NCBI RefSeq assembly: GCF_002979915.1
Contig: NZ_PCQA01000003.1
Location: forward strand, 434,001 to 498,000
DNA: 64,000 nucleotides
Origin: Arthrobacter sp. MYb213
Lineage (GTDB): Bacteria > Actinomycetota > Actinomycetes > Actinomycetales > Micrococcaceae
Direction of reading: 5' to 3'
Below are positions 25,135 to 49,073 of this stretch, piece by piece; position 1 is the first letter of the stretch; each line of letters begins with the position of its first letter. The notes beneath the pieces were generated by a model. The model was not told the DNA's origin. It was given only the letters and a program-made list of their open reading frames with translations, and ran no database searches. The position numbers and the translations under genes were made by a program.

Positions 25135-25159
25135 ACTGAAGTCAGATTCTAGTTCTAGA
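25135..25159. promoter_or_regulatory. Putative TetR operator, site 1 (upstream of operon A)
   Basis: Centred on T25147, with right half TCTAGTTC and left half ACTGAAGTCAGA. It matches the perfect site at 34284-34308 at about 17 of 24 non-central positions, including the outer ACT and the AGA-TCTAGTT core. It is 245 bp before the first start codon, farther than at the other two operons. A role in repression is inferred from recurrence, not tested. Confidence 0.55.
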
Positions 25160-25228
25160 AATATTCTTGTTGAGAAAATACTTGAAACTGCCAACTTTCG
25201 CCCGCATCGGCAAGGTCCAATTTCACAT

Positions 25229-25256
25229 AGTTCAGTTAATTTTCATTAACTGAACT
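25229..25256. promoter_or_regulatory. Second perfect inverted repeat upstream of operon A
   Basis: AGTTCAGTTAAT (25229-25240) and ATTAACTGAACT (25245-25256) pair perfectly around TTTC. The piece TTCAGTTAAT recurs at 34303-34312, directly beside the operon B operator. It could be a second regulator site or an mRNA leader hairpin. Confidence 0.55.
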
Positions 25257-25403
25257 GAGGCATTGGGAACACTTGCCTGCGACTCGAAAGGCGTCGAAAT
25301 CTTTCGAATAGTGATCTTGTTCACTTTTGATTCCGCTGATAGTCTCGACCCCACTTACCGTGGTTCAACGGTAAACGCCTAGTCAAAGACGAAAGGCAAA
25401 GTT

Positions 25404-26585
25404 GTGCATTTAAAAACTTCCGCCGAAATTTCCGAGCTTCGTGCTGAGTTGCGCTCATACTTCGCGACGCTTCTGACCGATGACATCCGCAAAAAACTTC
25501 GCGCCGAAGGCGAGGGGGGTGGGCAGACTCTGCGATCAATCATGGCCCAGATGGGCAAGGATGGATGGCTAGGAATCGGCTGGCCAACCGAGTACGGGGG
25601 ACAGGGGCGGGGGGCAGACGCGCAGTACGTTTTCTATGATGAGGCTTACCGTGCCGAAGCGCCGATTCCAATGATCACACTGACTACCGTGGGGCCAACA
25701 CTCATCGCTCACGGAACCAAAGCACAGAAAGATTACTTCCTTCCCAAGATCTTGGCCGGAGAATGCATCTTCTCCATTGGCTATACCGAACCCGAGGCCG
25801 GCACCGACTTGGCATCGTTGAGCACTCGGGCAATTCGCGAGGGCAACGAGTACGTGATCAACGGCAGTAAGGTTTTCACCTCCGGCGGCGATGGCGCTGA
25901 CTGGATCTGGCTTGCTGCCCGTACTGATGCCGAAGCACCCAAACATAAAGGCATCTCGCTGATACTCGTTCCCACCAGTGACCCGGGCTACTCCGCCACC
26001 CCCATTCACACCGTGGGAGGAGTGACAACCACCGCCTCGTATTACGACAATGTACGCGTTCCGGCCAGCAACATAGTGGGTGAAGAGAACAAGGGGTGGC
26101 AGATGATCACCACCCAGCTCAACCATGAACGTGTAGGGCTCGCGGCCTACAGCGGCATCTGTGAAGGCATGCTTGATAACGTGCGTGACTGGGTGGTGGG
26201 TCAGAAAACCGCGGAAGGTACGCCGCTGGCCCACGAACCATGGGTGCGCCAGTTGTTAGCCTCGTCCACTGCGAGATTGCGCGCCATGCGCTTGATGAAC
26301 TGGCAGCTAGTGGAGACCGTGGAACGCGGTGAGCTCAGCCCCGGTATTGCCTCTGCCGCAAAGGTCTTCGCCACCGAAACGGTGATTGATGTCTACCGCG
26401 CGTTGCTAGAAATCGTTGGCCCCAGCGCCTTGCGAGTCAGTGATTCTCCATGGCGCTTCGACTCAGGGCGATTGGCGCTGATGAACCTCAGCGCTCAAAT
26501 TAACACCTTTGGCGGCGGAGTCGCCGAAATCCAGCGTGAAATCGTCGCCTGGACCACTCTCGGAATGGCAAGGAAGTCACGATGA
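25404..26585 (+). CDS. Acyl-CoA dehydrogenase, ChsE2/FadE29-like catalytic subunit
   Basis: 393 aa, GTG start with GAAAGG 7 nt upstream. Full acyl-CoA dehydrogenase fold: YTEPEAGTDLASLSTRA (FAD/substrate loop), NGSKVFTSGGDGADW, NHERVGLAAYSG and the C-terminal GGGVAEIQREIVA. In Mycobacterium tuberculosis, ChsE2 (FadE29) and ChsE1 (FadE28) form an alpha2beta2 enzyme that desaturates the three-carbon steroid side-chain CoA ester. Here the next gene is a shorter, motif-poor partner overlapping by 4 nt, and split ChsH2, ChsH1 and Ltp2-like genes follow. That order closely parallels the mycobacterial side-chain (igr) operon. Membership in that clade is inferred from context and size. Confidence 0.82.
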   Translation: MHLKTSAEISELRAELRSYFATLLTDDIRKKLRAEGEGGGQTLRSIMAQMGKDGWLGIGWPTEYGGQGRGADAQYVFYDEAYRAEAPIPMITLTTVGPTLIAHGTKAQKDYFLPKILAGECIFSIGYTEPEAGTDLASLSTRAIREGNEYVINGSKVFTSGGDGADWIWLAARTDAEAPKHKGISLILVPTSDPGYSATPIHTVGGVTTTASYYDNVRVPASNIVGEENKGWQMITTQLNHERVGLAAYSGICEGMLDNVRDWVVGQKTAEGTPLAHEPWVRQLLASSTARLRAMRLMNWQLVETVERGELSPGIASAAKVFATETVIDVYRALLEIVGPSALRVSDSPWRFDSGRLALMNLSAQINTFGGGVAEIQREIVAWTTLGMARKSR

Positions 26586-27706
26586 ACACGCTCAGCATCA
26601 CCGAACCAAGTATGGAATTTTTGCTTGATGAAGCCCAACAGTCCATAGTGCAGCTGGCCGGTGAGATCTTCTCCAGCTTATCCAACGATGAAAATAATGT
26701 GGTCAATCAACGTTCAGGACGAAGCTTTGATGAAAATCTTTGGACGGAACTCATTGAAGCAGGGCTCCTTGAAGCCTTGCTGCCAGATGATGTTGGGCCA
26801 GGATTAGGTACTGTCGGATTGGCTCTTCTGGCGAAGGAACAAGGACGGAGCTTGGCGCGAATCCCACTGATTCCCACTGCTGTCGCAGCCCTGGCGCTGG
26901 CCCAGTTCCAAGGACATTCGCAGCTACTTGAAAAAATTGGCTCGGGAACAGCACGCGTGGGGATTTTGCTTCCCGAAGTTCAGCACCGCATTGACGCTCA
27001 GCGCACGGAAAATGGTTGGCAACTTCACGGACGTATCCAATATGGATATATGGTTCCGGCGATGACCCACCTGCTCGTTCAGTTCACCGACCAGGGTGTT
27101 GAGCACATGGTAATTATTGAGACGGAACGTGCCGGGCTCGGAATTGAGACTTTTGAGGGCATCTCCTATCTGCAACACGCAGAACTGAACTTCAAAGCAG
27201 TGCAGATCCAAGACCGTGACCTGCTCGGAGCACACGCCGCCCCGGGCGAGGTTGCCAGCTGGGTGCGCCATCGCCTCGTAGTGACCGCCGCGGCCAGCAT
27301 TGCCGGTGCCTGCGAAGAAGCAGTGCGCCGCACGGCGCTTTATACCTCGGAACGAGAGCAATTCGGGCGTCCGCTGTCCACCAATCAAGGTGTGGCCCTG
27401 CGTGCAGCGGATGCCTACATTGACACGCAAACCACGTGGCTTAGCACCATTGATGCGGCGTGGCAGCTGGATGCCGGGACCGCCGATGGTACTGAAGCCG
27501 CACTGGGTGCTTCTTGGTTTGCCAGGGAAGCCGGATTTCGTACGGTTCATGCCACACAGCACCTTCATGGCGGCATGGGTGCCGACAAGGACAATCACAT
27601 CCATCGCTTCTTTGTCTGGGTTCGGGAACTGGACCAAATGTGGGGTACCGCAACGCAGCTGTTAGAAGAACTAGCGGATACACTCCTGCCGCGGAGCAGT
27701 AAGTGA
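26582..27706 (+). CDS. Acyl-CoA dehydrogenase, ChsE1/FadE28-like partner subunit
   Basis: 374 aa. Recognisable as an acyl-CoA dehydrogenase by RREQFG-like SEREQFGRPLSTNQG, ATQHLHGGMGADKDNHIHRFF and the helical C-terminus. It lacks the TEPGAGSD-type FAD loop; the equivalent region reads VGILLPEVQHRIDAQ. This fits the role of a structural half in a heteromeric dehydrogenase, as ChsE1 is to ChsE2, where one active site forms per dimer. The ATG overlaps the upstream TGA by 4 nt (ATGA), giving equal translation of both subunits. Confidence 0.8.
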   Translation: MNTLSITEPSMEFLLDEAQQSIVQLAGEIFSSLSNDENNVVNQRSGRSFDENLWTELIEAGLLEALLPDDVGPGLGTVGLALLAKEQGRSLARIPLIPTAVAALALAQFQGHSQLLEKIGSGTARVGILLPEVQHRIDAQRTENGWQLHGRIQYGYMVPAMTHLLVQFTDQGVEHMVIIETERAGLGIETFEGISYLQHAELNFKAVQIQDRDLLGAHAAPGEVASWVRHRLVVTAAASIAGACEEAVRRTALYTSEREQFGRPLSTNQGVALRAADAYIDTQTTWLSTIDAAWQLDAGTADGTEAALGASWFAREAGFRTVHATQHLHGGMGADKDNHIHRFFVWVRELDQMWGTATQLLEELADTLLPRSSK

Positions 27707-29202
27707 CCTCCGGAACTTCAGCGCGAACGCACTCTGGACAAAAAGTTGGCTTTGTTCTTGCCATTTTGGTGATCGCTGAAGTGGTAGCGGCCTTTGAAAC
27801 ATCCATGGCCGTGCAGTTACTTTATGCACCGGGGGACTTTTTCACATCTGATCTTTCACAGTTGGTCTGGGTGGTGACTTCCTATTCACTGGTGGCTGCG
27901 TTGGCCACAGGCTTTGTTGGACGATTGGGTGACCAATTCGGCAGGCGCAAAATCCTCGTGGTCGTGTTGTTGATTTCTGCGGTGGGCTCGGTCATCAGTG
28001 CTATGGCTCCGACATTTGGGGTACTACTGGTTGGGAGAGCGCTCCAAGGGGTTTCCGGGGCCGTGTTGCCGCTAGCTATTGGCATGGTTCGCACCACTTT
28101 CCCCCGAGGGAAAATTGGCACTGGTATTGCGGTGGTATCCACCTCGGCGCTGATTGCAGGTGCTGCCGGAATGCTTGGCGGCGGCCTATTTTTGGACTAC
28201 GCAAGTTGGCATTGGATCTTCGTCAGCGCTGCGGTTTTCGCCGTTGTGGCAGCCGTGCTGGTGCATTTATTCCTTGCCAAGGAACCTCAAAGTACGCTGG
28301 CCGCCTCGGGGCGTGTGGATTGGAACGGTGGTCTGATGTTTGGCGCGGGCATTGCCGCGGTGCTCTATGGTTTGACACTGAGCAAAGACCAAGGCTTTAC
28401 CGCGGTGCCGGTCCTCGGATTCCTCGGTGGCGGATTGCTCTTGTTGGCTTTATGGGTGCGCTGGGAACTACGAGTTTCCGAGCCAATGATCGATGTGCGA
28501 ATGTTTAAACAGCGCAAGTTTGCCCTGGGCATGCTGGCTACGGCGCTGATCGCCTTAGGGCCGATTGGCACGATGAGCATTCTGAGCGTCTCCATTTACC
28601 GCAATCCCTCCAGCGTTGCGTTGGGTGATGGAACAGTGATGGATCTTCCGGTAGGCCTTGGGCTAAGCGCAACTATGACCGGTTTGCTAGGTTTCATTAC
28701 CGCTGCCGCGGCCTTCACTATTTCTCCGCTGATTGGCCGAGTTTCGTCTAAATACGGTGCGCGGACCGGACTGATGATCGGGTCGGCACTGACCATTATC
28801 GGGTTGGTGATCGTGTGCACCGCACCAACCAACCTAACTGTCGTCATCAGCGGACTCGTCGTGGTGATCTTTGGCACCGGATTTCTCTACTCCGGGATGC
28901 CCACCATCATCGTTGAATGCGTCTTGCCGGCGCAGACCAGCACGGCCACTGGCATTAACGCCGTGACCCGAACTGCATTCCAGGCGGTCGCGTCCTCTGT
29001 GATGGGTCTGTTATTGGTAATTTCACCGGTGTTTGCCGGGGAGAGCAGTTTCGTCTCGATGACCGGCTTTCTCACGGTAGTAGGGGTGCTGATCGCCACC
29101 TGCATTCTGACCATCCTGGTGGTGTTCTTCATTCCTGCCAACACCGCCGAACCATTAGCCGATGCCGCCCAGCATCCGAGCAACTTGACCCGAAAGGATT
29201 AG
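27703..29202 (+). CDS. MFS transporter, DHA2-like (14-TM), cluster copy 1
   Basis: 499 aa, GTG start overlapping the upstream stop by 4 nt. About 14 hydrophobic segments; GRLGDQFGRRKILVVVLL is motif A, and GRALQGVSGAVLPLAIG is the helix-4 motif B region. It shares architecture and local sequence (for example ELSMMYV/ETSMAVQ after EVVAAF/EIVSAF at the N-terminus, RMFKQRKFAL/RMFKNKQIAL) with the carrier at 43739-45226, so the two are paralogues within one pathway. Probable role: uptake of the acidic substrate or export of a pathway product; direction cannot be told from sequence. Confidence 0.88.
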   Translation: MTSGTSARTHSGQKVGFVLAILVIAEVVAAFETSMAVQLLYAPGDFFTSDLSQLVWVVTSYSLVAALATGFVGRLGDQFGRRKILVVVLLISAVGSVISAMAPTFGVLLVGRALQGVSGAVLPLAIGMVRTTFPRGKIGTGIAVVSTSALIAGAAGMLGGGLFLDYASWHWIFVSAAVFAVVAAVLVHLFLAKEPQSTLAASGRVDWNGGLMFGAGIAAVLYGLTLSKDQGFTAVPVLGFLGGGLLLLALWVRWELRVSEPMIDVRMFKQRKFALGMLATALIALGPIGTMSILSVSIYRNPSSVALGDGTVMDLPVGLGLSATMTGLLGFITAAAAFTISPLIGRVSSKYGARTGLMIGSALTIIGLVIVCTAPTNLTVVISGLVVVIFGTGFLYSGMPTIIVECVLPAQTSTATGINAVTRTAFQAVASSVMGLLLVISPVFAGESSFVSMTGFLTVVGVLIATCILTILVVFFIPANTAEPLADAAQHPSNLTRKD

Positions 29203-29204
29203 CA

Positions 29205-30905
29205 ATGAACATAGTTTCCCCGCCGTCAATTGCAAAAACCACCAGAGACCTGTTGGAGCTACGAGCCAAGGATGAACATCCTGGCCTGTTGTTCGAAGGC
29301 CGCATCTGGACTTGGGCCGAAGTAGTTGATGAGTGTAAAGTTCGCGCCCACGCATTGTTGGCCTTACACCAGCCAGGCGTCGCCTTCCACGTGGGGGTGA
29401 TGTTGGAAAACGACCCGGAATACGTATTTGCCATCGGTGCGGCAGCCTACGCTGGAGCCACCGTGGTGGGTATCAACCTCACCCGCCGTGGTGAAGAGCT
29501 GACCCGCGATATTGCCTACACCGATGTGGAAATCCTAATCACTTCCAAAGAATTGGAAAGTTACTTCAACTCGGCGCCTTCCGGAATTCCCACACAGCGG
29601 ACCTTGTATATTGGAACCGAAGAATTTGAACGGATCTTAGCCCCGTTTCGCGGCTTGCCGGCACCCCAAATCCCGGCAGCTAATAATCCGGAAACCAAGC
29701 TGCTCTTGCTGTTTACTTCGGGCTCTACGGGGGATCCGAAAGCGGTGATCTGCACCACCGGCCGCCTATGTCGCACCGCAGTTTATCGGCATATGGGCTT
29801 GGGGCGGCGCGATGTCAGCTACAACGCGATGCCGTTGTTTCATGGCAACGGCATCTTCGCCTGTTGGGCCAACCCGCTGGCAACCGGTGGCACCTTCGCT
29901 TTGGCCCGAAAATTCTCCGCCTCGAAGTTTCTACGAGATGTGATGCGTTACAAGGCCACCTACTTCAATTATGTTGGCCGTTCCCTCTCTTATCTGCTGG
30001 CCCAGCCAGAACGTCAAGAAGAATCCGGAACGTATTTGGAGTCCTGTTTTGGGACCGAAGCGAGCGAATTTGACCTAGCAGAGTTCAAACGTCGCTACGG
30101 GGTGGGGCCCACAGAAAGTTATGGTGCTTCGGAAGGCGGGCTGACCCTTGCGCGTACCGCAGATACTCCCAAGAACGCGTTGGGTGCGGCTCCGACCGGT
30201 ATGGATGCCGCGGTAGTTGATCCGGCGACGATGGAAGAATGTCCACGAGCTCAGCTAAGTGACGACGGACGAATCCTGAACGCAGAAGAAGCCATCGGTG
30301 AATTGGTGAACCTCACCGGGGCGGCCCTATTTGAGGGTTACTATAAAAATCCTGCGGCCACCGCAGCGCGAGTACGTGGGACCGCATTTTTCACTGGAGA
30401 CCTAGGCTACCGCGACGAGGACGGCTTCTTTTACTTCGCCGGACGAGATGCAGATCGGTTACGCGTCGATAGTGAAAACTTTTCCGCCGCTCCTATCGAA
30501 CGTGTTCTCTCACGTTTTCCGGGAGCCACACTAGCTGCGGTTTACCCGGTGCCTGATGTGCGAACCGGTGACCAGGTGATGGCCACCATTCAGGTGGAAG
30601 ATCCTTCTACATTCGATGTGCAAGAGTTTGCCCAGTTTTTGGATGCCCAGCCTGATCTCGGCACCAAATGGGCTCCGAAATTTCTGCGCGTGGTGACCGA
30701 TGTCCCGGTGACCGCAACCCAAAAGATTAACAAACCACAATTGCGCAAAGACGCATGGTTGGCTGATGACTTGATCTTTTATCGACCCGCCCGGCAATTC
30801 GACTATGAAGTTCTCGACTCAGCAGTTGTGGCTGAACTGAAATCCGCATTCGCGAGGAACCGACGTAGTCACCTCTTGCCGATGCTAACGGCCGAAGCCA
30901 AATAG
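29205..30905 (+). CDS. AMP-forming acyl-CoA synthetase, FadD17-like
   Basis: 566 aa, ATG with AAAGGA upstream. ANL superfamily: P-loop LLLLFTSGSTGDPKAV (~residues 165-180), the A5-type region ESYGASEGG, GDLGYRDEDGFFYFAGRDADRLR (A7-A8) and the C-terminal catalytic lysine in ATQKINKPQLRK. Overall it resembles FadD17/FATP-type ligases of the actinobacterial steroid regulons, which activate side-chain carboxylates of sterols or bile acids as CoA thioesters. Placed between the dehydrogenase and hydratase genes, it probably activates either the imported acid or the acid made by the aldehyde dehydrogenase of operon B. Confidence 0.85.
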   Translation: MNIVSPPSIAKTTRDLLELRAKDEHPGLLFEGRIWTWAEVVDECKVRAHALLALHQPGVAFHVGVMLENDPEYVFAIGAAAYAGATVVGINLTRRGEELTRDIAYTDVEILITSKELESYFNSAPSGIPTQRTLYIGTEEFERILAPFRGLPAPQIPAANNPETKLLLLFTSGSTGDPKAVICTTGRLCRTAVYRHMGLGRRDVSYNAMPLFHGNGIFACWANPLATGGTFALARKFSASKFLRDVMRYKATYFNYVGRSLSYLLAQPERQEESGTYLESCFGTEASEFDLAEFKRRYGVGPTESYGASEGGLTLARTADTPKNALGAAPTGMDAAVVDPATMEECPRAQLSDDGRILNAEEAIGELVNLTGAALFEGYYKNPAATAARVRGTAFFTGDLGYRDEDGFFYFAGRDADRLRVDSENFSAAPIERVLSRFPGATLAAVYPVPDVRTGDQVMATIQVEDPSTFDVQEFAQFLDAQPDLGTKWAPKFLRVVTDVPVTATQKINKPQLRKDAWLADDLIFYRPARQFDYEVLDSAVVAELKSAFARNRRSHLLPMLTAEAK

Positions 30906-30931: not shown

Positions 30932-31462
30932 ATGAGTGTAGATCCCAGCCTCGAAATCAACGAGCTGATTAGTGCTAGCCATGAACGAGTGAGTATTGCC
31001 CGGGACCCGGTTAACCGCCCCATGATTCATCACCTGTGCGACGCAATGGGGGATGCCAACCCTATCTATTTGGATCCCGAGGTAGCACGCAATGCCGGGC
31101 ACAGTGATGTGGTTGCACCACCAGCGGCCTTACAGGTTTGGAACATGACTAACCCTAGCGACCCGGAAATTTCCAGCGACGTTGACCGGGCCTATGGAAT
31201 CCTCGAAGCCAGCGGCTACCCGAAGGTCGTTGCTGTGAACAGCGAACAAGAATATGAACGCCATCTCGTTCCCGGCGACGTATTGACGGCCTATGAAAAA
31301 GTCGAGTCACTCAAGGGCCCTAAGCAGACCGGATTAGGCGAAGGGTATTTCATTACCACCCTGACCGAATACAAGGACCAGAACGACCAGCTGGTGGGAA
31401 CTATGCGTTTCCGCACCCTCTGGTACACCCCAGCCGTAGGACAGGAGCAGGACAATGACTGA
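30932..31462 (+). CDS. MaoC-like hydratase subunit equal to the N-terminal half of ChsH2
   Basis: 176 aa, ATG with AAGGAG. FAS1-type dehydratase/MaoC N-domain: PMIHHLCDAMGDANPIYLD (~30-48) and VVAPPAALQVWNM, with the C-terminal strand FITTLTEYKDQNDQLVG. In M. tuberculosis, ChsH2 is a single chain of a MaoC-like domain followed by DUF35. Here this gene stops and a separate DUF35 gene begins 8 nt earlier in another frame. With ChsH1 (next but one gene) it should form the enoyl-CoA hydratase for the shortened side chain. The 8-nt overlap keeps stoichiometry close to a fusion. Confidence 0.82.
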   Translation: MSVDPSLEINELISASHERVSIARDPVNRPMIHHLCDAMGDANPIYLDPEVARNAGHSDVVAPPAALQVWNMTNPSDPEISSDVDRAYGILEASGYPKVVAVNSEQEYERHLVPGDVLTAYEKVESLKGPKQTGLGEGYFITTLTEYKDQNDQLVGTMRFRTLWYTPAVGQEQDND

Positions 31463-31895
31463 AACCATCAGTGAAAAGAAGCAGCGCACCGCAGTGCGTC
31501 CGCGCCCGGCCATCAACTTCGACAACAAATTTTACTTTGACGCACTGAACCAGGGCGAACTGGCCATCCAAAAATGCCTTGAATGTAGCCAGCTGCGTCA
31601 TCCGCCAACCCCAATGTGTCCTAGTTGCCACTGCCTAGATTGGAGACCGGGGGTGATGAGTGGGCGTGGTGAGGTCTTTAGTTTTGTGGTGATGCATCAC
31701 CCCATCGTCCCGCCTTTCGAAGCTGGCTACGTTGTCGCCGTGATCGAGTTGGAGGAAGGTCCCCGGGTTGTGATGAATATTGAAGGCATTAAGGCAGAAC
31801 AAGTCGTAGTGGGTATGCCAGTGCTCGTCAGTGCAGAACGCATGGATGAGGATCTTGTGCTTCCCGTTGCCCGTCCGATAGGAGCACGATCATGA
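31455..31895 (+). CDS. DUF35 OB-fold protein with zinc ribbon, equal to the C-terminal half of ChsH2
   Basis: 146 aa. N-terminal rubredoxin-like zinc ribbon CLECSQLRHPPTPMCPSCHC (CxxC...CxxC, ~37-56), then the OB-fold with GRGEVFSFVVMHHP and VVAVIELEEGPRVVMNIEG. In ChsH2, the DUF35 domain docks the thiolase-fold aldolase Ltp2 and is required for retro-aldol cleavage. Here it is an independent protein encoded between the two hydratase halves and just upstream of the aldolase gene. It overlaps both neighbours (8 nt and 4 nt). Confidence 0.85.
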   Translation: MTETISEKKQRTAVRPRPAINFDNKFYFDALNQGELAIQKCLECSQLRHPPTPMCPSCHCLDWRPGVMSGRGEVFSFVVMHHPIVPPFEAGYVVAVIELEEGPRVVMNIEGIKAEQVVVGMPVLVSAERMDEDLVLPVARPIGARS

Positions 31896-32332
31896 CCGCA
31901 ATCGCCAAGACACAGCTATTGGTTGCACCGGTGATCACCGAAGGGCAACAGCTGCCGGAGCTGAAGATTCCAGTCACCGCAACGCTCATTGCTACTGGTG
32001 CTGTTGCCACCCGTGATTTCCAGAAGGTACATCATGACAAGTCGGTGGCTCAAGCTGCCGGAACCCCAGATATCTTCATGAATATCCTGACCACAAACTG
32101 CCTTGTCAACAGGTACGTCAGTGAATTCTCTGGCCCGCTGGGGCGGATTAAAAAGATTAATATCCGTCTTGGTGCACCGAACTATCCCGGTGATGAGATG
32201 ACGTTTACTGGCACGGTGCAGGCTGTCCAAGGCGAACGTATTGTCCTGGCGATCAACGGGACTAACTCGCTTGGTCCGCATGTCACCGGAACCGTAGAAC
32301 TGACCTTTGAATCTCAGGAGGAAACGCGATGA
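31892..32332 (+). CDS. MaoC-family hydratase subunit, ChsH1-like
   Basis: 146 aa single hot-dog domain. The motif RDFQKVHHDKSVAQAAG followed by TPDIFMNILTTNCLVNRYV contains the Asp/His hydratase pair of R-specific enoyl-CoA hydratases and is characteristic of ChsH1. Starts and stops overlap both neighbours by 4 nt. Predicted to pair with the MaoC-like protein at 30932-31462 and add water across the steroid-type 17(20)-enoyl-CoA double bond. Confidence 0.85.
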   Translation: MTAIAKTQLLVAPVITEGQQLPELKIPVTATLIATGAVATRDFQKVHHDKSVAQAAGTPDIFMNILTTNCLVNRYVSEFSGPLGRIKKINIRLGAPNYPGDEMTFTGTVQAVQGERIVLAINGTNSLGPHVTGTVELTFESQEETR

Positions 32333-33504: not shown

Positions 33505-34138
33505 GTCCTTTACGTGGCAACCAGCGCAAGAAAGCCACCGAGAAAACGATGACCGAAGGCTGGGCCTTTTGGAGGCTGCTGAGCATACTCGTCGGATCAT
33601 CGATGCGTTAGTTCGCGTGGATCCACATGATCCGATGGTGAGTGAGGTGGCTGAAAAGTTGGCTAATGTGGCACAGCTATTGGCCGACCGGCAGCTAGTG
33701 GACCCGCCGATTGTTGAATCGAAAGACTCGATGCGTAGTGCCGAGTATTTGGACCGTTCGCCGGTGACGGGGTTGTGTAACCCGCTTTCACCGCCACTGG
33801 AAGTTGTTCCTGACGGTCAGCACGGCGCTAAAGCTCGGGTGACCATGGGGTTGGCCTATCAAGGACCGCCGGGGCGGGTGCATGGCGGGTATGTCGCGAC
33901 GTTACTGGATCATGTCATGGGATATGCAGCTGGCACTTCGGGGCAATGGGTGTTCACCAGAACTCTCACCGTGGACTATGACTTAGCGGTTCCATTGTTT
34001 CAAGAGCTAGAAATCACTGGGACGATTGACCGGTTTGATGGTCGAAAAGTTTGGATGGTAGGGCAAATCAGCGCGGGTGGACGGGTTGTGGCTAAGGCCC
34101 ATGGCATGTGGGTAGGGCCTCGCGGTAGCGCGGAATAA
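33497..34138 (+). CDS. PaaI/4HBT-type acyl-CoA thioesterase
   Basis: 213 aa; hot-dog domain in the C-terminal ~120 residues with GPPGRVHGGYVATLLDHVMG, the HGG motif of PaaI-like thioesterases. The N-terminal ~80 residues are helical and charged. It overlaps the Ltp2-like stop by 8 nt and is the last gene of operon A; a hairpin follows after 22 bp. Likely role: hydrolysing stalled CoA intermediates to recycle CoA, possibly allowing release of partially shortened acids. Confidence 0.82.
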   Translation: MTKSFTWQPAQESHRENDDRRLGLLEAAEHTRRIIDALVRVDPHDPMVSEVAEKLANVAQLLADRQLVDPPIVESKDSMRSAEYLDRSPVTGLCNPLSPPLEVVPDGQHGAKARVTMGLAYQGPPGRVHGGYVATLLDHVMGYAAGTSGQWVFTRTLTVDYDLAVPLFQELEITGTIDRFDGRKVWMVGQISAGGRVVAKAHGMWVGPRGSAE

Positions 34139-41723: not shown

Positions 41724-42158
41724 ATGTCTACATATGCACTGCCCAAGCTGTCTCGACCATTGCCGGTGCCGACCCCGCTGACCCGCCCCTTCTGGGACGC
41801 GTTGGCCGAACGTAAGGTCCGTATCCAGTATTCTCCGTCCCTTGACGAATACATCTTTTATCCGCGCCCGTTGGCTCCGCGCACGCTGGCCGATGACCTG
41901 CAGTGGCGTGAGATCTCGGGAAACGGAACCCTCTACTCCTATACGGTCGCCACGCGTCCGCCAGCCCCTCACTTTGCGGCTGAAGGCGAAATGATTTTGG
42001 CTATTGTTCAGTGGGATGAAGGACCTAAGTTCTCTACCGAGATCGTTAATGTCAAACCCGAGAATCTGCATCTGGGAATGGAGCTTTCCCCGGTGTTTAC
42101 CGATTATCCGGAAGGAAATATCACGATGCTGCGCTATGAGCCAAGGAGTGGGGTATGA
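41724..42158 (+). CDS. DUF35 OB-fold protein without zinc-ribbon cysteines
   Basis: 144 aa, ATG with AAAGGA. The OB-fold part is clear (SGNGTLYSYTVATRPP, MILAIVQWDEGPKFSTEIV). The N-terminal ribbon, however, reads VRIQYSPSLDEYIFYPRPLA, with no cysteine anywhere in the protein, whereas usual members have four zinc-ligand cysteines there. The spacing of the ribbon is preserved, so the metal was lost without deleting the region. It probably partners the thiolase-fold protein encoded 38 bp upstream. Its stop overlaps the aldehyde dehydrogenase start by 4 nt. Confidence 0.85.
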   Translation: MSTYALPKLSRPLPVPTPLTRPFWDALAERKVRIQYSPSLDEYIFYPRPLAPRTLADDLQWREISGNGTLYSYTVATRPPAPHFAAEGEMILAIVQWDEGPKFSTEIVNVKPENLHLGMELSPVFTDYPEGNITMLRYEPRSGV

Positions 42159-43621
42159 GTTTGGAAACCGTAGTAGGACTGCCAACACCGGCGCTGGTGG
42201 TTGACGGGCAACAAATCCGCGAGGGGCAGCAGCTCTTCGAACACCTAGACCCGGCCACTGGCAAACCCAATGGCATGGTACCGATGGCTAGTATTGAGCA
42301 GGTCGATGCCGCGGTGCTCGCCGCGCACCAAGCTTTCGATTCTTGGCGCAGGCTTCCTGGAGCTCAACGTGCTCGCTTACTCTTTAGGCTCGCTGAACTG
42401 ATGGAGGAACGCGCACCGCTGTTGGCTGAAGCGAACCGTGCAGATAACGGCGCTCCCAAGAGTACCGCCAGCAATATGGTGGCCGCAGCTGTGGATTGGG
42501 TCCGTTATTACGCTGGCTGGGCGGATAAACTTCCGTTGGGCCGAGTGAGCAGCAATGGTGGCGCAGGCGGTTCCTTGGGACACACATTAAGACAGCCCTA
42601 TGGGGTGATCGGGGCGGTGATCACTTGGAACGCACCTGTCATGTCATTGGCAATGAAAGTGCCTGCAGCTCTAGCCGCTGGCAACACGATGGTGATCAAG
42701 CCTAGCGAACTCACCCCCTTCACCCCAACAGTATTTGCTCAGCTGGTACAGGAAGCAGGGATCCCTGATGGGGTGATCAATATTGTTACTGGTGGGGCCG
42801 AAGCAGGCGCTGCCTTGGTGGAACATCCGCTGGTAAAAAAGATCACTTTCACCGGTGGACCAGTTACCGCACGCGCCATTGCGCGCAGCTGTGCCGAAAC
42901 CTTCAAACCGATGATCTTAGAACTGGGCGGAAAATCCGCCAACATCGTCTTTGACGATGCTGATCTTGAAAAAGCAGCCGGACACGCTGCATTCCTGGCC
43001 TTCGGGATGATGAGTGGCCAAGCCTGTGCGTTGCCTACTCGATTACTGGTCCAGCGCGGGGTCTATGAGCAGTTCATTAGGATGGTTCAGAGCATCGCCG
43101 AGTCTTTCCCCCTCGGTGACCCTGCTGGCGACTACACACTGTGTGGTCCGGTGGTTAGCCAGCAGGCCATCGACCGGATCCAGTCCATGGTTGCTCAGGC
43201 CCACACCGACGGGGCCCGGCTGGTGACCGGGGGGAAGCGGGCCGAAGGAGAACTGGCCGAGGGATATTTCTACCCACCGACGATTTTTGCCGATGTAGAT
43301 CCCGCCTCTCAGCTAGCGCAGGAAGAAGTTTTTGGACCCGTGCTGGCAGTGATTCCCTTCGAGGATGAAGCAGAAGCACTGGCTTTGGCCAATGACACCC
43401 AGTATGGGCTTTCGGGGTATGTCTGGACCGCAGATTTAGGTCGCGGGCTACGCCTCAGTGAAGAGTTGGTCACCGGCGAGGTGGCGGTTAACGGGGCATT
43501 TAACGCCACTGCAGAACGTCCTTTTGGCGGCATCGGACATTCGGGCATTGGCAATGAAGGTGGGCTTGAAGGCCTAGAAGAGTTCTTCTGGACCAAGTCT
43601 GTGGGCATCTCAACCCACTAA
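42155..43621 (+). CDS. NAD(P)-dependent aldehyde dehydrogenase, putative side-chain aldehyde oxidase (Sad-like role)
   Basis: 488 aa. Complete ALDH: WNAPVMSLAMKVPAALAAG (NAD site), FTGGPVTARAIA, catalytic Glu in LELGGKSANIVF and nucleophilic Cys in MSGQACALPTRLL, plus GYVWTADLGRG and the C-terminal oligomerisation strands. Oxidises aldehydes to acids. Directly after the aldolase and DUF35 genes (ATGA overlap), it is well placed to oxidise the aldehyde made by a first retro-aldol step, as Sad does in the Pseudomonas bile-acid pathway. No short-chain aldehyde source is otherwise encoded nearby. Confidence 0.87.
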   Translation: MSLETVVGLPTPALVVDGQQIREGQQLFEHLDPATGKPNGMVPMASIEQVDAAVLAAHQAFDSWRRLPGAQRARLLFRLAELMEERAPLLAEANRADNGAPKSTASNMVAAAVDWVRYYAGWADKLPLGRVSSNGGAGGSLGHTLRQPYGVIGAVITWNAPVMSLAMKVPAALAAGNTMVIKPSELTPFTPTVFAQLVQEAGIPDGVINIVTGGAEAGAALVEHPLVKKITFTGGPVTARAIARSCAETFKPMILELGGKSANIVFDDADLEKAAGHAAFLAFGMMSGQACALPTRLLVQRGVYEQFIRMVQSIAESFPLGDPAGDYTLCGPVVSQQAIDRIQSMVAQAHTDGARLVTGGKRAEGELAEGYFYPPTIFADVDPASQLAQEEVFGPVLAVIPFEDEAEALALANDTQYGLSGYVWTADLGRGLRLSEELVTGEVAVNGAFNATAERPFGGIGHSGIGNEGGLEGLEEFFWTKSVGISTH

Positions 43622-43738: not shown

Positions 43739-45226
43739 ATGAATGAACCACAGACAAGGCCTGCAGCACCCATAGTGCGCAACGCAGTCCCGGGATTCGC
43801 CGCGGTAGTCGCGGTATTGGTGCTCGCGGAAATCGTTTCGGCTTTTGAACTGTCCATGATGTACGTGACCCTGCCCACCCTGATGGCAGATTTCCAGAAG
43901 GATGCCAGCACCGTGGCCTGGGTAGTCACCATCTACCTATTGGTCTCGGCGTCCGCCGCGTTGCTCGGTGGGCGTCTGGGAGATATGTATGGCCGTCGTA
44001 AGGTCATGCTGGTCGTACTCATATTGGCCGGTATTGGCTCCTTCATTTCGTTAATCGGTGGCAGCCTAGAAATGATCATCATAGGCCGAGGCATCCAAGG
44101 TACCGCCGGTGCGGTCATGGGACTGGCCTTTGGATTGGCCCGTGAGCACCTACAGGAAAAGAAATTGCCGGTAGGAGTTTCCATGATTGGCGCTTCAGCG
44201 CTGATCGCTGGCGCTGGCGGGGCGCTCATTGCCGGTCTGATGATTGATGTTTATTCCTGGCATGGAATTTTCCTCTTTGCTGGGGTGCTGGCTGCCATTG
44301 CAGCTATCGCTGTGTTGCTGGTGATCCCCAAAGACCAGCCACGGCCGAACATTCGCAACCGACAGGACTTGTTTGGCGCTTTGTTGCTACCCATTGGCGC
44401 CTCGGGTCTACTACTAGGATTGTCTAACAGCTCCAAAACTGGTTTTTTCACCGTGCAAGCTGGCGGAATCATCCTTGCCGGTGCCATCGCGGTTGCCGTT
44501 TGGATTTGGTGGGAGCTGCACACCCCTAGCCCGATCGTGAACCTAAGGATGTTCAAAAATAAGCAGATTGCGCTGGTGATGACGGCAACTTTTCTGGCCG
44601 CCGTCGGTCCTATTGGGGGTCTTGCGGTACCCAGTCAGATGGTGCTGCAATATCCACCTGAACTCGGTTTTGGTCTGGGATTCACTGCCACCGCCGCTGG
44701 GACCTTCAGCTGTGTGACAGCACTGGTTGGCTACTTCTTCTCACCTTTAGGTGGCAGGCTTGCCCAAATGTTTGGTGCTCGAATCGTGTTCATAACCGGT
44801 TTGCTGTTGATGACCTGCGCGGTCATTCCGATCGTGTTGTTACTTGGAAACTTGCCGGTGTTTTTGGTGGCTATGACTGTGAACGCGGTGGGTGTTTCCC
44901 TGACCTTCGGGGCCCTACCCAATGTGCTTATCGAGGCTGTGCCAGCATCTCATACCTCGGAGAGTACCGGGACAAACACGATGGTGCGAAATATCGGGCA
45001 ATCCGTGGCGACCGCGATTGGTGCGTTCTTGCTTGCGCGTCGGCAGGATCCGGCGACTTCCTTGGTGGCCGAACAGGGGGTCGGTGACGCCTTCATATTC
45101 GTGGCAGTGTTCGGAGCGCTGTCCTTGATCGTCGCCTGCTTCCTTAACCGCCGTCCGGTGGTGTGGAACCCGGAAAACACGGGTTCTGTAGCTAATGCGC
45201 CGAAATTGGTGCAGGGACGTTCCTAG
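43739..45226 (+). CDS. MFS transporter, DHA2-like (14-TM), cluster copy 2
   Basis: 495 aa, ATG with AGGA upstream. Roughly 14 hydrophobic segments with motif A GRLGDMYGRRKVMLVVLI and GRGIQGTAGAVMGLAFG. Clear paralogue of the carrier at 27703-29202, with the same N-terminal FE(L/T)SM segment and mid-protein RMFK loop. Two related carriers in one catabolic cluster suggest separate uptake and export duties, or carriers for substrate and a shortened product. It is the last gene of operon B and is followed by a hairpin. Confidence 0.88.
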   Translation: MNEPQTRPAAPIVRNAVPGFAAVVAVLVLAEIVSAFELSMMYVTLPTLMADFQKDASTVAWVVTIYLLVSASAALLGGRLGDMYGRRKVMLVVLILAGIGSFISLIGGSLEMIIIGRGIQGTAGAVMGLAFGLAREHLQEKKLPVGVSMIGASALIAGAGGALIAGLMIDVYSWHGIFLFAGVLAAIAAIAVLLVIPKDQPRPNIRNRQDLFGALLLPIGASGLLLGLSNSSKTGFFTVQAGGIILAGAIAVAVWIWWELHTPSPIVNLRMFKNKQIALVMTATFLAAVGPIGGLAVPSQMVLQYPPELGFGLGFTATAAGTFSCVTALVGYFFSPLGGRLAQMFGARIVFITGLLLMTCAVIPIVLLLGNLPVFLVAMTVNAVGVSLTFGALPNVLIEAVPASHTSESTGTNTMVRNIGQSVATAIGAFLLARRQDPATSLVAEQGVGDAFIFVAVFGALSLIVACFLNRRPVVWNPENTGSVANAPKLVQGRS

Positions 45227-45254
45227 CCCGCCGTGCGGCTGCAATTCATGGAAT

Positions 45255-45369: not shown

Positions 45370-45425
45370 ATTTAGTAGTTGGTGATCTAACCCACACTCC
45401 CACGACAATCAACGGAAGGCATTTA

Positions 45426-46316
45426 ATGGCCATCTATACCCAGAACATCGGCAAAGTCGTCGAAGGTGAACCGGTGACCTGGACCGGTGACCAAGCATTG
45501 CTCTATGCGTTGAGCATTGGAGTGGGCCGGCCCGACTCTACCGACCGGATCGCATACACCACGGAGAATTCTGCTGGCATCGAGCAACGAGCCTTCCCGA
45601 CCTTTGCTGTAGTTTTGGGGGGAAGCTCAGGCTCGCTTGCAGACTTAGGGGACTTCAGACTTCATCAGATTTTACATGGAGGTCAGTCACTGACCTTGCA
45701 TCAAGAACTACAACCGGCAGGCACCGCTACACCTCGCCACTTTATGAGCGCGGTCTACGACCAGGGCCAAAACGCAATCATCGAGTTGACGACAGAACTG
45801 GTGGACCCGGCCGGACAACTAATGGCCACCAGTATTACCTCAATGGTGATTCGCGGGGAGAACGGCTACGGTCCACGACCTCCGATCGCCTTGGGCTGGG
45901 TGGACCGACAAGAGCCAGCGGACAAGATTGTCCAGAGCCCAACCAGTACCGACCAAGCTTTGCTCTATCGGCTGAACGGCGATAAGAACCCGCTGCACTC
46001 CGACCCGGCGATGGCCCAGAAGATCGGATTCGAACGTCCAATTCTGCATGGGCTTTGCACCTACGCTATGGCCGCCGAAGCGTTGCTGCGCTCGGTAGAC
46101 CAGCTAGCTGAAAAGGGTCTGGGTTCAATTTCAGCTCGTTTCGCCGCTCCTGTCATCCCCGGGCAGACCTTGACCACACATATCTGGAACACGACTGAAG
46201 GCGCAAACTTTCAGGTCCTATGTGAAGGCAAAGTGGTGCTTGACCGCGGTGTCGCTATCGCTATCGGGAACCGAGCAGCATCAACCACACCGGCTTTGGA
46301 TAACGCGAAAGTCTAA
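45426..46316 (+). CDS. Two-domain MaoC hydratase (ChsH3/hydratase-2-like)
   Basis: 296 aa, ATG with GGAAGG. N-terminal MaoC_N-type half with WTGDQALLYALSIGVG and RAFPTFAVVLGG. C-terminal MaoC half with the hydratase-2 signature YRLNGDKNPLHSDPAMAQKIGFERPILHGLCTYA (~178-211), carrying the catalytic Asp and His. R-specific enoyl-CoA hydratase or dehydratase. By length and order it resembles ChsH3 (Rv3538), assigned to an earlier turn of steroid side-chain beta-oxidation. It could therefore hydrate the C24 enoyl-CoA made by the fused dehydrogenase. First gene of operon C. Confidence 0.85.
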   Translation: MAIYTQNIGKVVEGEPVTWTGDQALLYALSIGVGRPDSTDRIAYTTENSAGIEQRAFPTFAVVLGGSSGSLADLGDFRLHQILHGGQSLTLHQELQPAGTATPRHFMSAVYDQGQNAIIELTTELVDPAGQLMATSITSMVIRGENGYGPRPPIALGWVDRQEPADKIVQSPTSTDQALLYRLNGDKNPLHSDPAMAQKIGFERPILHGLCTYAMAAEALLRSVDQLAEKGLGSISARFAAPVIPGQTLTTHIWNTTEGANFQVLCEGKVVLDRGVAIAIGNRAASTTPALDNAKV

Positions 46317-46344
46317 GACTACCTACCTGAGAGAGGTCAAAGTA

Positions 46345-47112
46345 ATGAAAATTGCAGTACTGATCAAACAGGTTCCAGACACCGAGGAACCGCGCAAGCT
46401 TGCCGCAAGCGGCCATTTAGACCGCAACGAAGCTGAATTAATTGCTGACGAAATTACAGAACGTGCACTGGAAGTAGCGCTGAAAGTCAAAGATGGTGAT
46501 AAGAAGACCGAAATTATCGCTGTGACCCTAGGCCCTGGTTCCGCAACCGACGCACTGCGTAAAGCGCTGTCATTGGGGGCAGACTCGGCGATGCACATTC
46601 AAGATGAGTCTCTGGCTGGATCCGACGCGGTGAGCACCGCCCGCGCGCTAGCCGAAGCGTTGCGCAAGATAGACGCCGACGCGATCCTCGCCGGAGGTGA
46701 GTCTACCGACGGTCGCGGTGGCGTCGTACCGGCCATGGTGGCCGAACTGCTGGGACTGCCCTTTGCCGGGCCACTGGCAGCAGTGGATTTCGAAGGCAGC
46801 AAAGTAACCGGTCAACGTCCTGTAGCCGGAGGCAATCAACAGGTCAGCGTCGGGTTGCCTGCGGTCCTCACCGTGACCGAGAGCGTGGGAGAAGCACGTT
46901 TTCCGAAGTTCAAGGGCATCATGACTGCCAAACGCAAACCTATTAATGCAGAAGACGCGGCCTCACTTGGACTGACCGTAGATCATGCGACCGGCAACCG
47001 CGTGCTTTCTTCCGCTGTCCGTCCGCCACGCAGCTCAGGACAGATCATCCAAGATGAAGGCGATGCCGTCCAGCGACTTATCGCCTACCTCGAATCCGAA
47101 CAGCTCATCTGA
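46345..47112 (+). CDS. etfB: Electron transfer flavoprotein beta subunit
   Basis: 255 aa from ATG 46345, GAGAGG upstream. EtfB fold: [14 protein letters not shown] start, [60 protein letters not shown] (AMP-binding region) and the recognition loop region [22 protein letters not shown]. With EtfA it accepts electrons from the acyl-CoA dehydrogenases of operons A and B in the cytosol. It lies 28 bp after the hydratase gene. Confidence 0.95.
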
Positions 47113-47125
47113 AAGGCACATACAC

Positions 47126-48109
47126 ATGACTGACATCTTGATTCACGTGGAGATTTCTCCCGACGGCACTCCTGCTTCGAACACTGGACACCTGCTGGCA
47201 CTGGCAAGGGGTTTAGGGAGGCCGGTAGCGGTTGCCGCAGTTGGGCCAGATGATGGTGCTGTCCCGCTAGGGCAAGCGCTGGGAGCGCTCGGCGCACAGG
47301 TGTGCTTTATTGCGCAGACCGAGGCAGCAACGAATACAATTGCCGGCGGCGGCACTGAAGCACTGCAAGCGGCCTTAGAGCGTTTTGATGCTTCGACCGT
47401 ATTATGCGCCAGTACCCCTGACGGCCGAGAAGTGTTGGCCCGGCTAGCAATCCGCACTGACGCTCGATTGTTGCTTGAAGCTCAGACGCTACGCCTGGCC
47501 GGAGAGCAGCTGATCGCCAGCCACTCCGTCTTCGGCGGAAACTACACCACCGAATCCACCCTTGGCTCATCCTTAGCATTGGTGACAGTGGCATCCTCAG
47601 GTACCCAACCTCCCGCGGCAATTGATGCTCCGGAAATCATCATCGAGACGTTGGCTGTAAACGAAACTGGCTGCAGCCTGCAAGATTTCACGCAGGCACA
47701 GTCCCGTGCTGAGCGTCCAGAATTGCGTGGAGCACAGATCGTAGTCTCCGGTGGTCGTGGTCTAGCGTCCCAAGAGAACTTCAGTCTTATTGAAGACTTG
47801 GCCGACTCACTTAAGGCTGGGCTAGGGGCTTCGCGAGCAGCGGTCGACGCAGGCTATGTAGAGCAATCACATCAGGTTGGACAGACCGGCGTGAGCGTTT
47901 CGCCTCAGCTGTATCTAGCGGTCGGTATATCTGGAGCCATTCAGCACTTGGCTGGTATGCAGACAGCAAAGCGCATTGTTGCGATTAACAGAGATGAAAA
48001 CGCACCAATTTTCTCCATTGCTGATTTTGGCATTGTTGGGGATCTATTCCAGATCCTTCCGCAACTGACTGAACAGATCCAAGCCAAGCGATCAGTATCC
48101 GCCGGTTAG
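47126..48109 (+). CDS. etfA: Electron transfer flavoprotein alpha subunit
   Basis: 327 aa from ATG 47126, GAAAGG upstream. The C-terminal FAD domain has [49 protein letters not shown] and [18 protein letters not shown], all hallmarks of EtfA. The N-terminal domain is more divergent and short. Forms the ETF heterodimer with EtfB (13-bp spacing). A dedicated ETF inside a catabolic cluster suggests a specialised electron route; it is followed 16 bp later by a b-type cytochrome gene. Confidence 0.95.
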
Positions 48110-48125
48110 GCAGGGAGAACCTACC

Positions 48126-49073
48126 ATGACGATGACTATGAAAAACGGAACTACGCCGCAGAATAAGAACCCGGGAAACCAGGTCTTGAAAAAAACAAAG
48201 TTTGTTGTCGGACTGGTGGTGATCTTGGCTGCTCTGGTGTTGCTGGCTCGCTGGTGGAGCGGCACCGCGACGGGAACGCAGTTCATCGCCAGCTACTCGG
48301 GACATTCGAACCTGCCACAAAATGCTCCGACAGGTATTCCTGCATGGCTGGGCTGGCAGCACTTCTTGAACGCCTTTTTCTTGATTCTGATCATTCGTTC
48401 AGGCTGGTTGATCCGCACTACAACCCGGCCCAAAGCATATTGGAGCAGAAATAATACGGGTCTGTTCAAAACCAAAGGCAAGGCAAAGAAGATCAGCCTG
48501 GAAATTTGGGTGCACTTGTGCTTTGACGTGTTGTGGCTGGCAAATGGTGTGGTTTTTATTGCGATGCTTTTCGCGACCGGTGCGTGGATGCGCATAGTCC
48601 CGACAAGTTGGGATGTATTTCCTAACGCGTTTAGCTCCGGTATCCAGTACTTATCTTTGGAATGGCCGCAGGAGAACGGATGGTTGTACTATAACGCCCT
48701 GCAGCTGCTGGCTTACTTTGTGGTGGTCTTCATTGCCGCGCCGCTAGCGGCCATAACTGGCTTGCGTATGTCGCCGGTCTGGAACGAAAAATGGGCAGTG
48801 GCAAACAAGATCTTGCCGATAGAAGCTGCACGCAAACTACACTTTCCGGTCATGCTGTTCTTCGCTTCATTTATACTCATGCATGTGTTGTTGGTGATGC
48901 TCACCGGAGTCCGGTCAAACCTCAACCACATGTTTGCTGCGAGGAGTGATGACGGATGGCTAGGGGTAATTCTCTTCAGTATTGCGGTATTTTTAACGGC
49001 TTTGGCCTGGCTGGCCTGCCGGCCGATTATCGTCCGCAGCGTGGCAGGGTTAACCGGGAAAATCTCCAAATAG
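48126..49073 (+). CDS. Cytochrome b561-type membrane protein, putative electron acceptor of ETF
   Basis: 315 aa with about five or six transmembrane helices. Histidines positioned for heme binding occur in LGWQHFLNAFF, EIWVHLCFDVLWLANG and KLHFPVMLFFASFILMHVLL, the pattern of di-heme cytochrome b/b561-like proteins of the molybdoenzyme and thiosulfate-reductase membrane subunit type. No partner dehydrogenase is encoded here; its neighbours are EtfB and EtfA (16-bp spacing). ETF-derived electrons could therefore enter the menaquinone pool through it instead of classical ETF-quinone oxidoreductase. That role is inference only. Ends operon C. Confidence 0.75.
   Translation: MTMTMKNGTTPQNKNPGNQVLKKTKFVVGLVVILAALVLLARWWSGTATGTQFIASYSGHSNLPQNAPTGIPAWLGWQHFLNAFFLILIIRSGWLIRTTTRPKAYWSRNNTGLFKTKGKAKKISLEIWVHLCFDVLWLANGVVFIAMLFATGAWMRIVPTSWDVFPNAFSSGIQYLSLEWPQENGWLYYNALQLLAYFVVVFIAAPLAAITGLRMSPVWNEKWAVANKILPIEAARKLHFPVMLFFASFILMHVLLVMLTGVRSNLNHMFAARSDDGWLGVILFSIAVFLTALAWLACRPIIVRSVAGLTGKISK

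Follow-up and report, generated by a model that had tools for sequence, protein, structure and literature searches.

Genes for a putative two-round aldolytic side-chain pathway for bile acids in a Micrococcaceae genome in which key ring-degradation genes were not found

Introduction

Can a bacterium be equipped to shorten the side chain of a steroid acid while leaving the rings alone? The question is raised by a 64,000-nucleotide stretch of the genome of Arthrobacter sp. MYb213 (bases 434001-498000 of contig C8; this whole stretch is called the window), in which 21 genes at 25404-49073, each an open frame on the plus strand, form a cluster of steroid side-chain type. The host genome comprises 3,785,151 bases in 14 contigs and is 99.93% complete; we take the host to be a Glutamicibacter, of the same genus as G. 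protophormiae JCM 1973 and G. soli NHPC-3. We propose that the cluster probably encodes a system that degrades the side chain of C24 steroid acids aldolytically in two rounds, with bile acids as the most likely substrates. Its enzymes are of known kinds, and the novelty lies in how they are combined and in a genotype confined to the side chain.

In published descriptions, Proteobacteria break down the C5 chain of bile acids by aldolysis and Actinobacteria do so by thiolysis (PMC8399759, PMC11321319; papers are cited throughout for the excerpts available), and the two phyla are stated to differ in their side-chain pathway (PMC11321319). Arthrobacter has been named among putative steroid degraders (PMC4810484), and the literature excerpts searched held no report of bile-acid or steroid side-chain degradation in Arthrobacter or other Micrococcaceae. 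Judged from sequence, three features of the cluster are unusual: the route, of bile-acid type, is aldolytic although the host is an actinobacterium, the partner of Sal is free of zinc ligands, and the likely C24 activator is an ATP-grasp ligase.

Both side-chain rounds are represented in the cluster

The cluster falls into two modules, operon A (25404-34138), with a C3 side-chain set, and operon B (34379-49073), with a C5 set of bile-acid type; as an earlier, sequence-only reading of this DNA had supposed, both rounds are encoded as far as sequence goes. The gene list of that reading is also borne out. It comprised two single acyl-CoA dehydrogenases and one fused one, three MaoC/hot-dog genes (30932-31462, 31892-32332 and 45426-46316), two thiolase-fold proteins each with a DUF35 gene, an aldehyde dehydrogenase, two kinds of CoA ligase (here assigned as AMP-forming and ADP-forming), an electron-transfer flavoprotein (ETF, with beta and alpha genes) and two carriers of the major facilitator superfamily (MFS). 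To these we add a 4HBT thioesterase-like, a TetR-family, a glyoxalase-like and a cytochrome b561-like gene. Eight of the proteins have steroid side-chain enzymes as their closest solved relatives: Ltp2, Sal, both DUF35 proteins, both ChsE-type chains, ChsH1 and the MaoC half of ChsH2.

The Sal-type enzyme for the C5 side chain (40480..41685, plus strand, its start moved from 40354) matches chain A of 9MYR, the structure entry of CtSal, at 459 bits, the next chain scoring 178. CtSal is a bile-acid aldolase with catalytic Tyr302 and Cys304 in a YDCY motif and with Gln347 and Gln352 close by (PMC12329534). The window protein carries YDCY together with GGQLSFGQ, in which the paired Gln are retained, and YDCY is present at all 80 Sal loci, which are the best 80 of 236 and comprise nine named Micrococcaceae and 71 others (mycobacteria, one Nocardia and one Pseudonocardiales metagenome-assembled genome, MAG). 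CtSal prefers bile acids with unoxidised rings about 260-fold over a sterol analogue (PMC12329534), so prior ring oxidation should not be needed. The Ltp2 aldolase for the C3 side chain (32329..33504, plus strand) matches TcLtp2 (6ok1_A) at 589 bits, with 270 identical positions (390 and 391 aa) and the next match at 181 bits; it reaches 673 bits against PRK07855 (cut-off 469). It also retains the counterparts of Tyr294, His296 and Tyr344, the catalytic residues used for comparison being taken from PMC12329534. The description of both thiolase folds as cysteine-less may stand for the thiolase nucleophile, but not beyond it, since Sal keeps the cysteine of YDCY.

The sequence-only reading had named placement with non-steroid clades as an outcome that would speak against it; for the two aldolases this outcome did not occur. 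In a maximum-likelihood tree of 48 rows, drawn from 17 of the 80 Sal loci and 26 of 27 further thiolase-like loci (L016, a short match, was left out), the window Sal joins CtSal and the actinobacterial Sals at a fork supported at 100/100, apart from Ltp2 and the thiolases, and the window Ltp2 joins TcLtp2 (94/98, not starred) and mycobacterial Ltp2 (97/92, starred). Branches are long among the outer thiolase-like rows and at their junction with the Sal group, and CtSal is itself a fairly long row. The dehydrogenases were compared by best solved match instead of by tree; here the single pair proved to be of steroid type and the fused enzyme unspecific.

Within operon A, the ChsE-type alpha chain (25404..26585, plus strand) matches Tcur3483 (6wy8_B) at 427 bits and 4x28_A at 394, followed by 142 bits, while its beta partner (26582..27706, plus strand) matches Tcur3481 (6wy8_A) at 161 bits and 4x28_D at 115, followed by 51; we take 6wy8 and 4x28 to be steroid enzymes. 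ChsH2 is split here between the overlapping plus-strand genes 30932..31462 and 31455..31895, with no single MaoC-DUF35 polypeptide. The MaoC half matches two PDB sequences and no others (117 bits), both from the ChsH1-ChsH2 entries 4w78 and 4wnb, between which the chain labels differ, and the DUF35 half matches 6ok1_B at 134.8 bits (next 47). ChsH1 (31892..32332, plus strand) matches 4wnb_B at 117.5 bits and 4w78_B at 117 (next 32). Between the dehydrogenases and ChsH2 lies an AMP-forming ligase (29205..30905, plus strand) for which the steroid-22-oyl-CoA ligase model NF052587, of CasI type, is the top model.

Operon B surrounds Sal with candidates for the remaining steps. These are a fused acyl-CoA dehydrogenase with two copies in one chain (34379..36586), which stands next to these two genes, ligase and Sal, at each Micrococcaceae locus examined, an ADP-forming ATP-grasp acyl-CoA ligase (36680..38836; PF13549, PF13607, PF13380), an aldehyde dehydrogenase in a Sad-like role (42155..43621; PF00171, 511 bits) and a double-MaoC hydratase of ChsH3/CasD-like layout (45426..46316; PF01575 and PF22622), all on the plus strand. 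The ATP-grasp enzyme is the sole ligase of operon B and a free C24 acid needs activating, and it is therefore taken as a candidate C24 bile-acid activator. No fitting report of an ADP-forming bile-acid ligase was met among the 10 papers listed out of 70, as judged by titles and the opening lines of abstracts.

A Sal partner without zinc ligands

The DUF35 partner of Sal (41724..42158, plus strand) matches the CtShy DUF35 chain 9myr_B at 103 bits and the DUF35 of ChsH2 at 45. Zinc is bound by four cysteines in TcChsH2 and by a Cys3His1 set in CtShy, where the site shapes the bile-acid pocket (PMC12329534). The finger segment of the window protein holds no Cys or His at all, and thus no counterpart of the Cys3His1 set. 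Across 79 DUF35 rows (one from the window, the others from the 78 loci, out of 80, at which DUF35 was matched), 78 have the finger segment, of which 71 are without Cys or His and seven have exactly one. The actinobacterial Sal partners sampled should therefore not form a zinc site of the CtShy type. The contrast exists within the cluster itself, in that the DUF35 half of ChsH2, which partners Ltp2, keeps a four-cysteine finger (C-x2-C-x10-C-x2-C), whereas the Sal partner does not. Zinc loss in the Sal partner is not mentioned in the zinc passages of PMC12329534 (12 of 15 considered), and 'zinc' is absent from PMC11321319 and occurs in PMC10398937 in its references only; the search went no wider than these sources.

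Key ring-degradation genes were not found in the host genome

The absence of ring genes, first noticed for the 24 kb of the cluster, holds genome-wide in searches for KshA, KstD and HsaC. The KshA model PF19298 gives no match in the host at 0.001. The KstD-like protein of the relative G126 (451 and 440 bits with its best 3-ketosteroid models, for which the cut-offs are 789 and 788), used as query on nine genomes that do not include L107-L113, G046 and G064, scores 19 bits in the host versus 849-1216 bits in six relatives, its source among them; in G095 and G141, which are without a strong KshA match, it gives 99 and 176 bits, to other KstD relatives. Host FAD_binding_2 matches number 25, of which the three above 250 bits are SdhA, a fumarate-reductase-like protein (below cut-offs) and the L-aspartate oxidase NadB, and the other 22 reach at most 35 bits. 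The HsaC model scores 39 and 24 bits on the two host extradiol enzymes (cut-off 450). Neither was retained as HsaC: L048 passes the HpaD cut-off (450 versus 321 bits) and L047 resembles HpaD or catechol dioxygenase, below cut-offs. PF19298 fits none of the ten host Rieske matches. Four of these (L037, L038, L040, L041) were scanned by models and rejected as KshA, one being a benzoate dioxygenase above cut-off, and L040 and L041 scoring best, below cut-offs, as HcaE and GbcA.

The relatives show where such genes might be expected. In G126, G. protophormiae and G. soli, which span two genera, the KshA and KstD genes share a region with the malate synthase operon (L072 1752-3383, L071 8387-10015, L075 6113-7744), and that of G126 also has HsaA-like (386/450 bits) and HsaD-like (272/400 bits) genes. 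The host has the malate synthase operon at C8:202999-207956, its best match 85% identical to the relatives' malate synthase and with the neighbours alongside, inside 100 kb (C8:175001-275000) that hold no gaps or unknown bases; the genes after it resemble rhamnose genes, as read from translations with no family search. Compared with this 100 kb, the ring-region proteins of G126 and G. protophormiae match the malate synthase side only, apart from 27-41% matches to carriers, short-chain dehydrogenases and an acyl-CoA-dehydrogenase relative. The HsaA query matched at C8:267717 (27% identity), which we take to be a general relative of the acyl-CoA dehydrogenases. Right-hand synteny between C8:234520-236551 and G. 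protophormiae C5:110991-112956 was considered and dropped, its gene order being unfitting, so that the malate synthase side alone was used and no precise empty site is claimed.

Distribution among Micrococcaceae and other Sal carriers

Thirteen Micrococcaceae with operon B were listed (the host, G126, L105-L113, G046 and G064). KshA scores above 270 bits in five of them (L105, L106, L107, L113 and G126) and finds no match in eight (the host, L108-L112, G046 and G064); most KshA-negative genomes are drafts, and L111 is a MAG. All five KshA carriers have Ltp2, at about 90% identity to the window protein in three and about 60% in L107 and L113, a comparison based on 17 of the 80 Sal loci together with G000. 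Among the eight without KshA, two have Ltp2 and thus both rounds, namely the host and Paeniglutamicibacter antarcticus W2, whose Ltp2 is 90% identical and whose operon A is complete but lies on a different contig; the other six show only a cross-match to Sal and thus round one only. Further combinations occur: G050 has Ltp2 and KshA with one thiolase-like match only, and therefore presumably no Sal, and G022 and G094 have KshA and KstD with no Ltp2 match, that is, ring genes without this side-chain set. In Arthrobacter sp. ATA002 (L208 10217-10220; L113 about 5153-5216), the Ltp2 and fused-dehydrogenase matches each lie in two pieces in different frames, through a frame break or a sequence error.

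The KshA survey used 50 of the 80 Sal loci, the 30 omitted being mycobacterial by title. Outside Micrococcaceae, 40 of the 41 Sal carriers tested have KshA, the exception being the Pseudonocardiales MAG, and in this sample ring-less Sal carriers are therefore mainly Micrococcaceae. The family also stands apart in what accompanies Sal. The ATP-grasp ligase is present at 9/9 named Micrococcaceae loci versus 0/71 of the others within the flanks covered (16 of these 71 loci being shorter than 20 kb), and the aldehyde dehydrogenase, present at 65-76% identity in the nine, has only 33-42% relatives near 11 of the 71. At these other loci a DUF35 gene lies 1.15-1.45 kb past the Sal start in 69/71, and a relative of the fused dehydrogenase (42-45% identity) lies no more than 2.4 kb ahead of Sal in 54/71.

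Comparison to known systems

The cluster displays individual features of several known systems. With the Sal/Shy/Sad route of Pseudomonas Chol1 and Comamonas testosteroni it shares Sal with YDCY, a DUF35 partner, an aldehyde dehydrogenase, a second ligase and a second aldolase. However, its DUF35 is stand-alone and lacks the zinc ligands of CtShy, a double-MaoC hydratase takes the place of Shy, the ligase beside Sal is ADP-forming with no StdA1/CasG-like ligase in the cluster, and the key ring genes were not found in the host. The 71 other Sal loci fit the layout of the HBC operon of Mycolicibacterium neoaurum. There, in atf1-chsH4-chsE6-kstR3, a Sal orthologue and a stand-alone DUF35 protein open the C22 branch by which sterol side chains are broken down (PMC10398937). 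The window likewise has a Sal orthologue, a stand-alone DUF35 gene and an acyl-CoA dehydrogenase gene nearby, but adds a ligase, an aldehyde dehydrogenase, a hydratase, ETF, a cytochrome and a carrier to what is a sterol side branch in M. neoaurum. In mycobacteria the C24-CoA ester is derived from longer sterol chains. With an ATP-grasp ligase and a close aldehyde dehydrogenase at nine loci, the Micrococcaceae appear to add a complete pathway.

Operon A recalls the igr operon and ChsE1E2-ChsH1H2-Ltp2 of Mycobacterium and Thermomonospora in its C3 side-chain enzymes, but differs in the split ChsH2 and in having a CasI-like ligase, an MFS carrier and a 4HBT protein inside the operon. Actinobacterial bile-acid side-chain degradation, a CasI-like ligase and the C3 set are also traits of the cas cluster of Rhodococcus jostii RHA1, which uses the thiolase CasB in the C5 round, without Sal and Sad (PMC8399759). 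For a CasB-type thiolase, the 50 window open reading frames scanned with Pfam show no thiolase fold besides Sal and Ltp2; the genome was not searched. The window cluster thus combines traits of both phyla, a double-MaoC hydratase of actinobacterial type with Sal and an aldehyde dehydrogenase.

Proposed mechanism

Gene content, family placement, catalytic residues and the genome-wide failure to find key ring genes are established; from them we infer the substrate, the order of steps, the roles of ligases, cytochrome and carriers, and the release of the core. In the first round, encoded by operon B, the ATP-grasp ligase would form the C24-CoA ester, the fused dehydrogenase would introduce a double bond and the double-MaoC protein would hydrate at C22. 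Sal, acting together with the zinc-less DUF35 protein, would then cleave off acetyl-CoA to give a C22 aldehyde, which the aldehyde dehydrogenase would convert to the C22 acid. The electrons would pass to the ETF encoded alongside, with the cytochrome b as a possible further carrier. In the second round, the CasI-like ligase of operon A would re-activate the C22 acid, the ChsE pair would dehydrogenate it, ChsH1 and the split ChsH2 would hydrate at C17, and Ltp2 would free propionyl-CoA and a C19 17-ketosteroid. This order is modelled on known routes, in which activation, dehydrogenation, hydration and aldolysis are followed by oxidation, re-activation and a second aldolysis (PMC8399759, PMC11321319). 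Given that genome searches for KshA, KstD and HsaC came up empty, opening of the C19 core by the 9,10-seco route is not expected, and because KstD is among the three, 5-beta-androstan-17-ones of the etiocholanolone type would be expected over androstadienediones.

Alternative explanations

The best placed alternative, in our view still unlikely, is that the host is a full steroid degrader with its ring genes on a plasmid, in a gap or in an unrelated pathway that escapes the models. The relatives' ring cluster does lie far from the side-chain genes, at a distance of about 290 kb in G126 and, in G. protophormiae and G. soli, on a different contig; steroid clusters may sit on plasmids (PMC4810484); and the genome-wide ring-gene search covered KshA, KstD and HsaC only. 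The near-complete assembly with empty KshA, KstD and HsaC searches argues against it, as does the gap-free host counterpart of the relatives' ring site without ring orthologues and the lack of a KshA match in seven further Micrococcaceae with operon B. The sequence-only reading had set distant ring genes beside a side-chain-only lifestyle; the two can now be separated, in that the relatives' ring genes are distant and the host searches are empty, which makes the side-chain-only genotype the better option.

It is very improbable that the side-chain genes are a relic, decaying after loss of a ring cluster. In its favour, ring genes are also carried by two congeners in which both modules occupy this site (from an ABC pair to VanY, the order of the modules being different); however, all 21 genes are open, the catalytic residues of both aldolases are retained and P. 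antarcticus shows the same genotype with both modules. A non-steroid substrate, such as a branched polycyclic or isoprenoid acid, would suit the unspecific PDB matches of the fused dehydrogenase and double-MaoC hydratase, but is more doubtful still, as Sal, Ltp2, both DUF35 proteins, the single dehydrogenase pair, ChsH1 and ChsH2 match steroid enzymes best, by wide margins.

Several points weigh against the two-round bile-acid pathway that we prefer. The CasI-like ligase scores 589 bits with NF052587, the best among all models yet under its cut-off of 900. The PDB matches of the fused dehydrogenase show no specificity for steroid enzymes, and the top match of the double-MaoC hydratase is a general MaoC protein (3khp_A, 195 bits). 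Since the Sal orthologue Atf1 serves sterol side-chain degradation (PMC10398937), Sal alone is no proof of bile acids. On the side of the rings, one host Rieske protein (C9:317111; L038 1438-2532, 364 aa), which has no KshA match, has the sterol monooxygenase SdmA as its best model at 86 bits (cut-off 600). The negative ring-gene result is confined to KshA, KstD and HsaC, with HsaA added in C8:175001-275000 only, and does not extend to HsaD, IpdAB, other C/D-ring genes or hydroxysteroid dehydrogenases. Ring genes could also lie on a plasmid outside the assembly.

Implications

For the family as a whole, we regard it as an even question whether Micrococcaceae include natural side-chain-only trimmers of bile acids. 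These would come in two grades, removing acetyl-CoA alone and releasing C22 acids or, as in the host and P. antarcticus, removing both acetyl-CoA and propionyl-CoA and releasing C19 17-ketosteroids of the etiocholanolone type, and would feed ring-degrading neighbours through an aldolytic route thought proteobacterial, with an ADP-forming bile-acid ligase and a zinc-less DUF35 protein in the Sal complex. Bile-acid degraders release steroid intermediates transiently (PMC6668416); strains without ring genes would, if this is true, release them permanently, and a set of strains with graded modules would imply that the work of steroid turnover is shared out among organisms and that androstane 17-ketones have a bacterial source in manure and guano. 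Strains of this kind would resemble the industrial mycobacteria in which kshA and kstD have been deliberately deleted to yield C19 and C22 steroids (PMC10398937). The zinc-less DUF35 protein and the ATP-grasp ligase pose enzyme questions that are directly testable.

Transcription units and other features of the window

Three operons had been suggested for the cluster, which is possible. Genes in 25404-34138 overlap or stand at most 26 bases apart, and the successive gaps after 34138 are 240, 93, 78, 40, 91, 38, -4, 117, 199, 28, 13 and 16 bases. A promoter-like site at 45342-45369 (plus strand), inside the 199-base gap ahead of 45426, would suit a third unit. The consensus promoter scan shows no excess over shuffles (5 versus a mean of 6.4, and 4 versus 4.9), and terminator-like sites number 19 versus 12.5 (sd 3.2) in shuffles for 24600-37000 and 12 versus 12.2 for 37000-49600; one terminator-like site (minus strand, 36640-36658) falls between genes.

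The remaining genes of the cluster all lie on the plus strand. Operon A includes an efflux-like MFS carrier (27703..29202; PF07690, top NCBIfam TIGR00711 at 133 bits, cut-off 230) and ends with the 4HBT thioesterase-like protein (33497..34138; PF03061), for which a tie to the Rhodococcus cluster via 'ro05818' was dropped, the term not being found in the literature searched. In operon B, the TetR-family regulator (38915..39520; PF00440) has a frame conserved at 54-73% identity in 9/9 named relatives; the 248-aa open reading frame 38818-39564, considered as a protein of its own, is a wrong frame that masks it. With regard to KstR3, the regulator finds no match at 1e-8 in the 71 non-Micrococcaceae loci and about 22 bits at most in the open reading frames of the 12 loci tried. 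A glyoxalase-4 fold protein (39561..40388; PF13669) precedes Sal, and a second MFS carrier (43739..45226; PF07690) follows the aldehyde dehydrogenase.

ETF beta (46345..47112, start moved from 46222; PF01012), ETF alpha (47126..48109, start moved from 46985; PF00766 and PF01012) and a cytochrome b561-like membrane protein (48126..49073; PF01292, 33.6 bits, cut-off 30.1), 61-67% identical in five named relatives, close the operon. This arrangement (46345-49073), also found at seven other operon-B loci, ends operon B in 8/13 (the host, G126, L108-L112 and G046). ETF and cytochrome b come after operon A in G. protophormiae and G. soli, ETF alone was found in G064, and L107 and L113 have neither in the flanks covered. 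The cytochrome is possibly an outlet from ETF to quinone other than ETF-QO.

Elsewhere in the window, an Old-yellow-enzyme family protein (Oxidored_FMN) is encoded at 7417-8523, 17 kb off the cluster; bile-acid metabolism includes ene-reductases with this fold. At 90-2828 the end of a DUF3427 helicase and, after it, an HNH_2 protein may belong to a restriction or defence island. A CbiQ-type permease with a double ABC ATPase, an ECF-type importer (5183-7329), lies near a nucleoside hydrolase (3148-4245), and at 16139-16792 a pterin-4a-carbinolamine dehydratase domain is fused to a glyoxalase-like domain.

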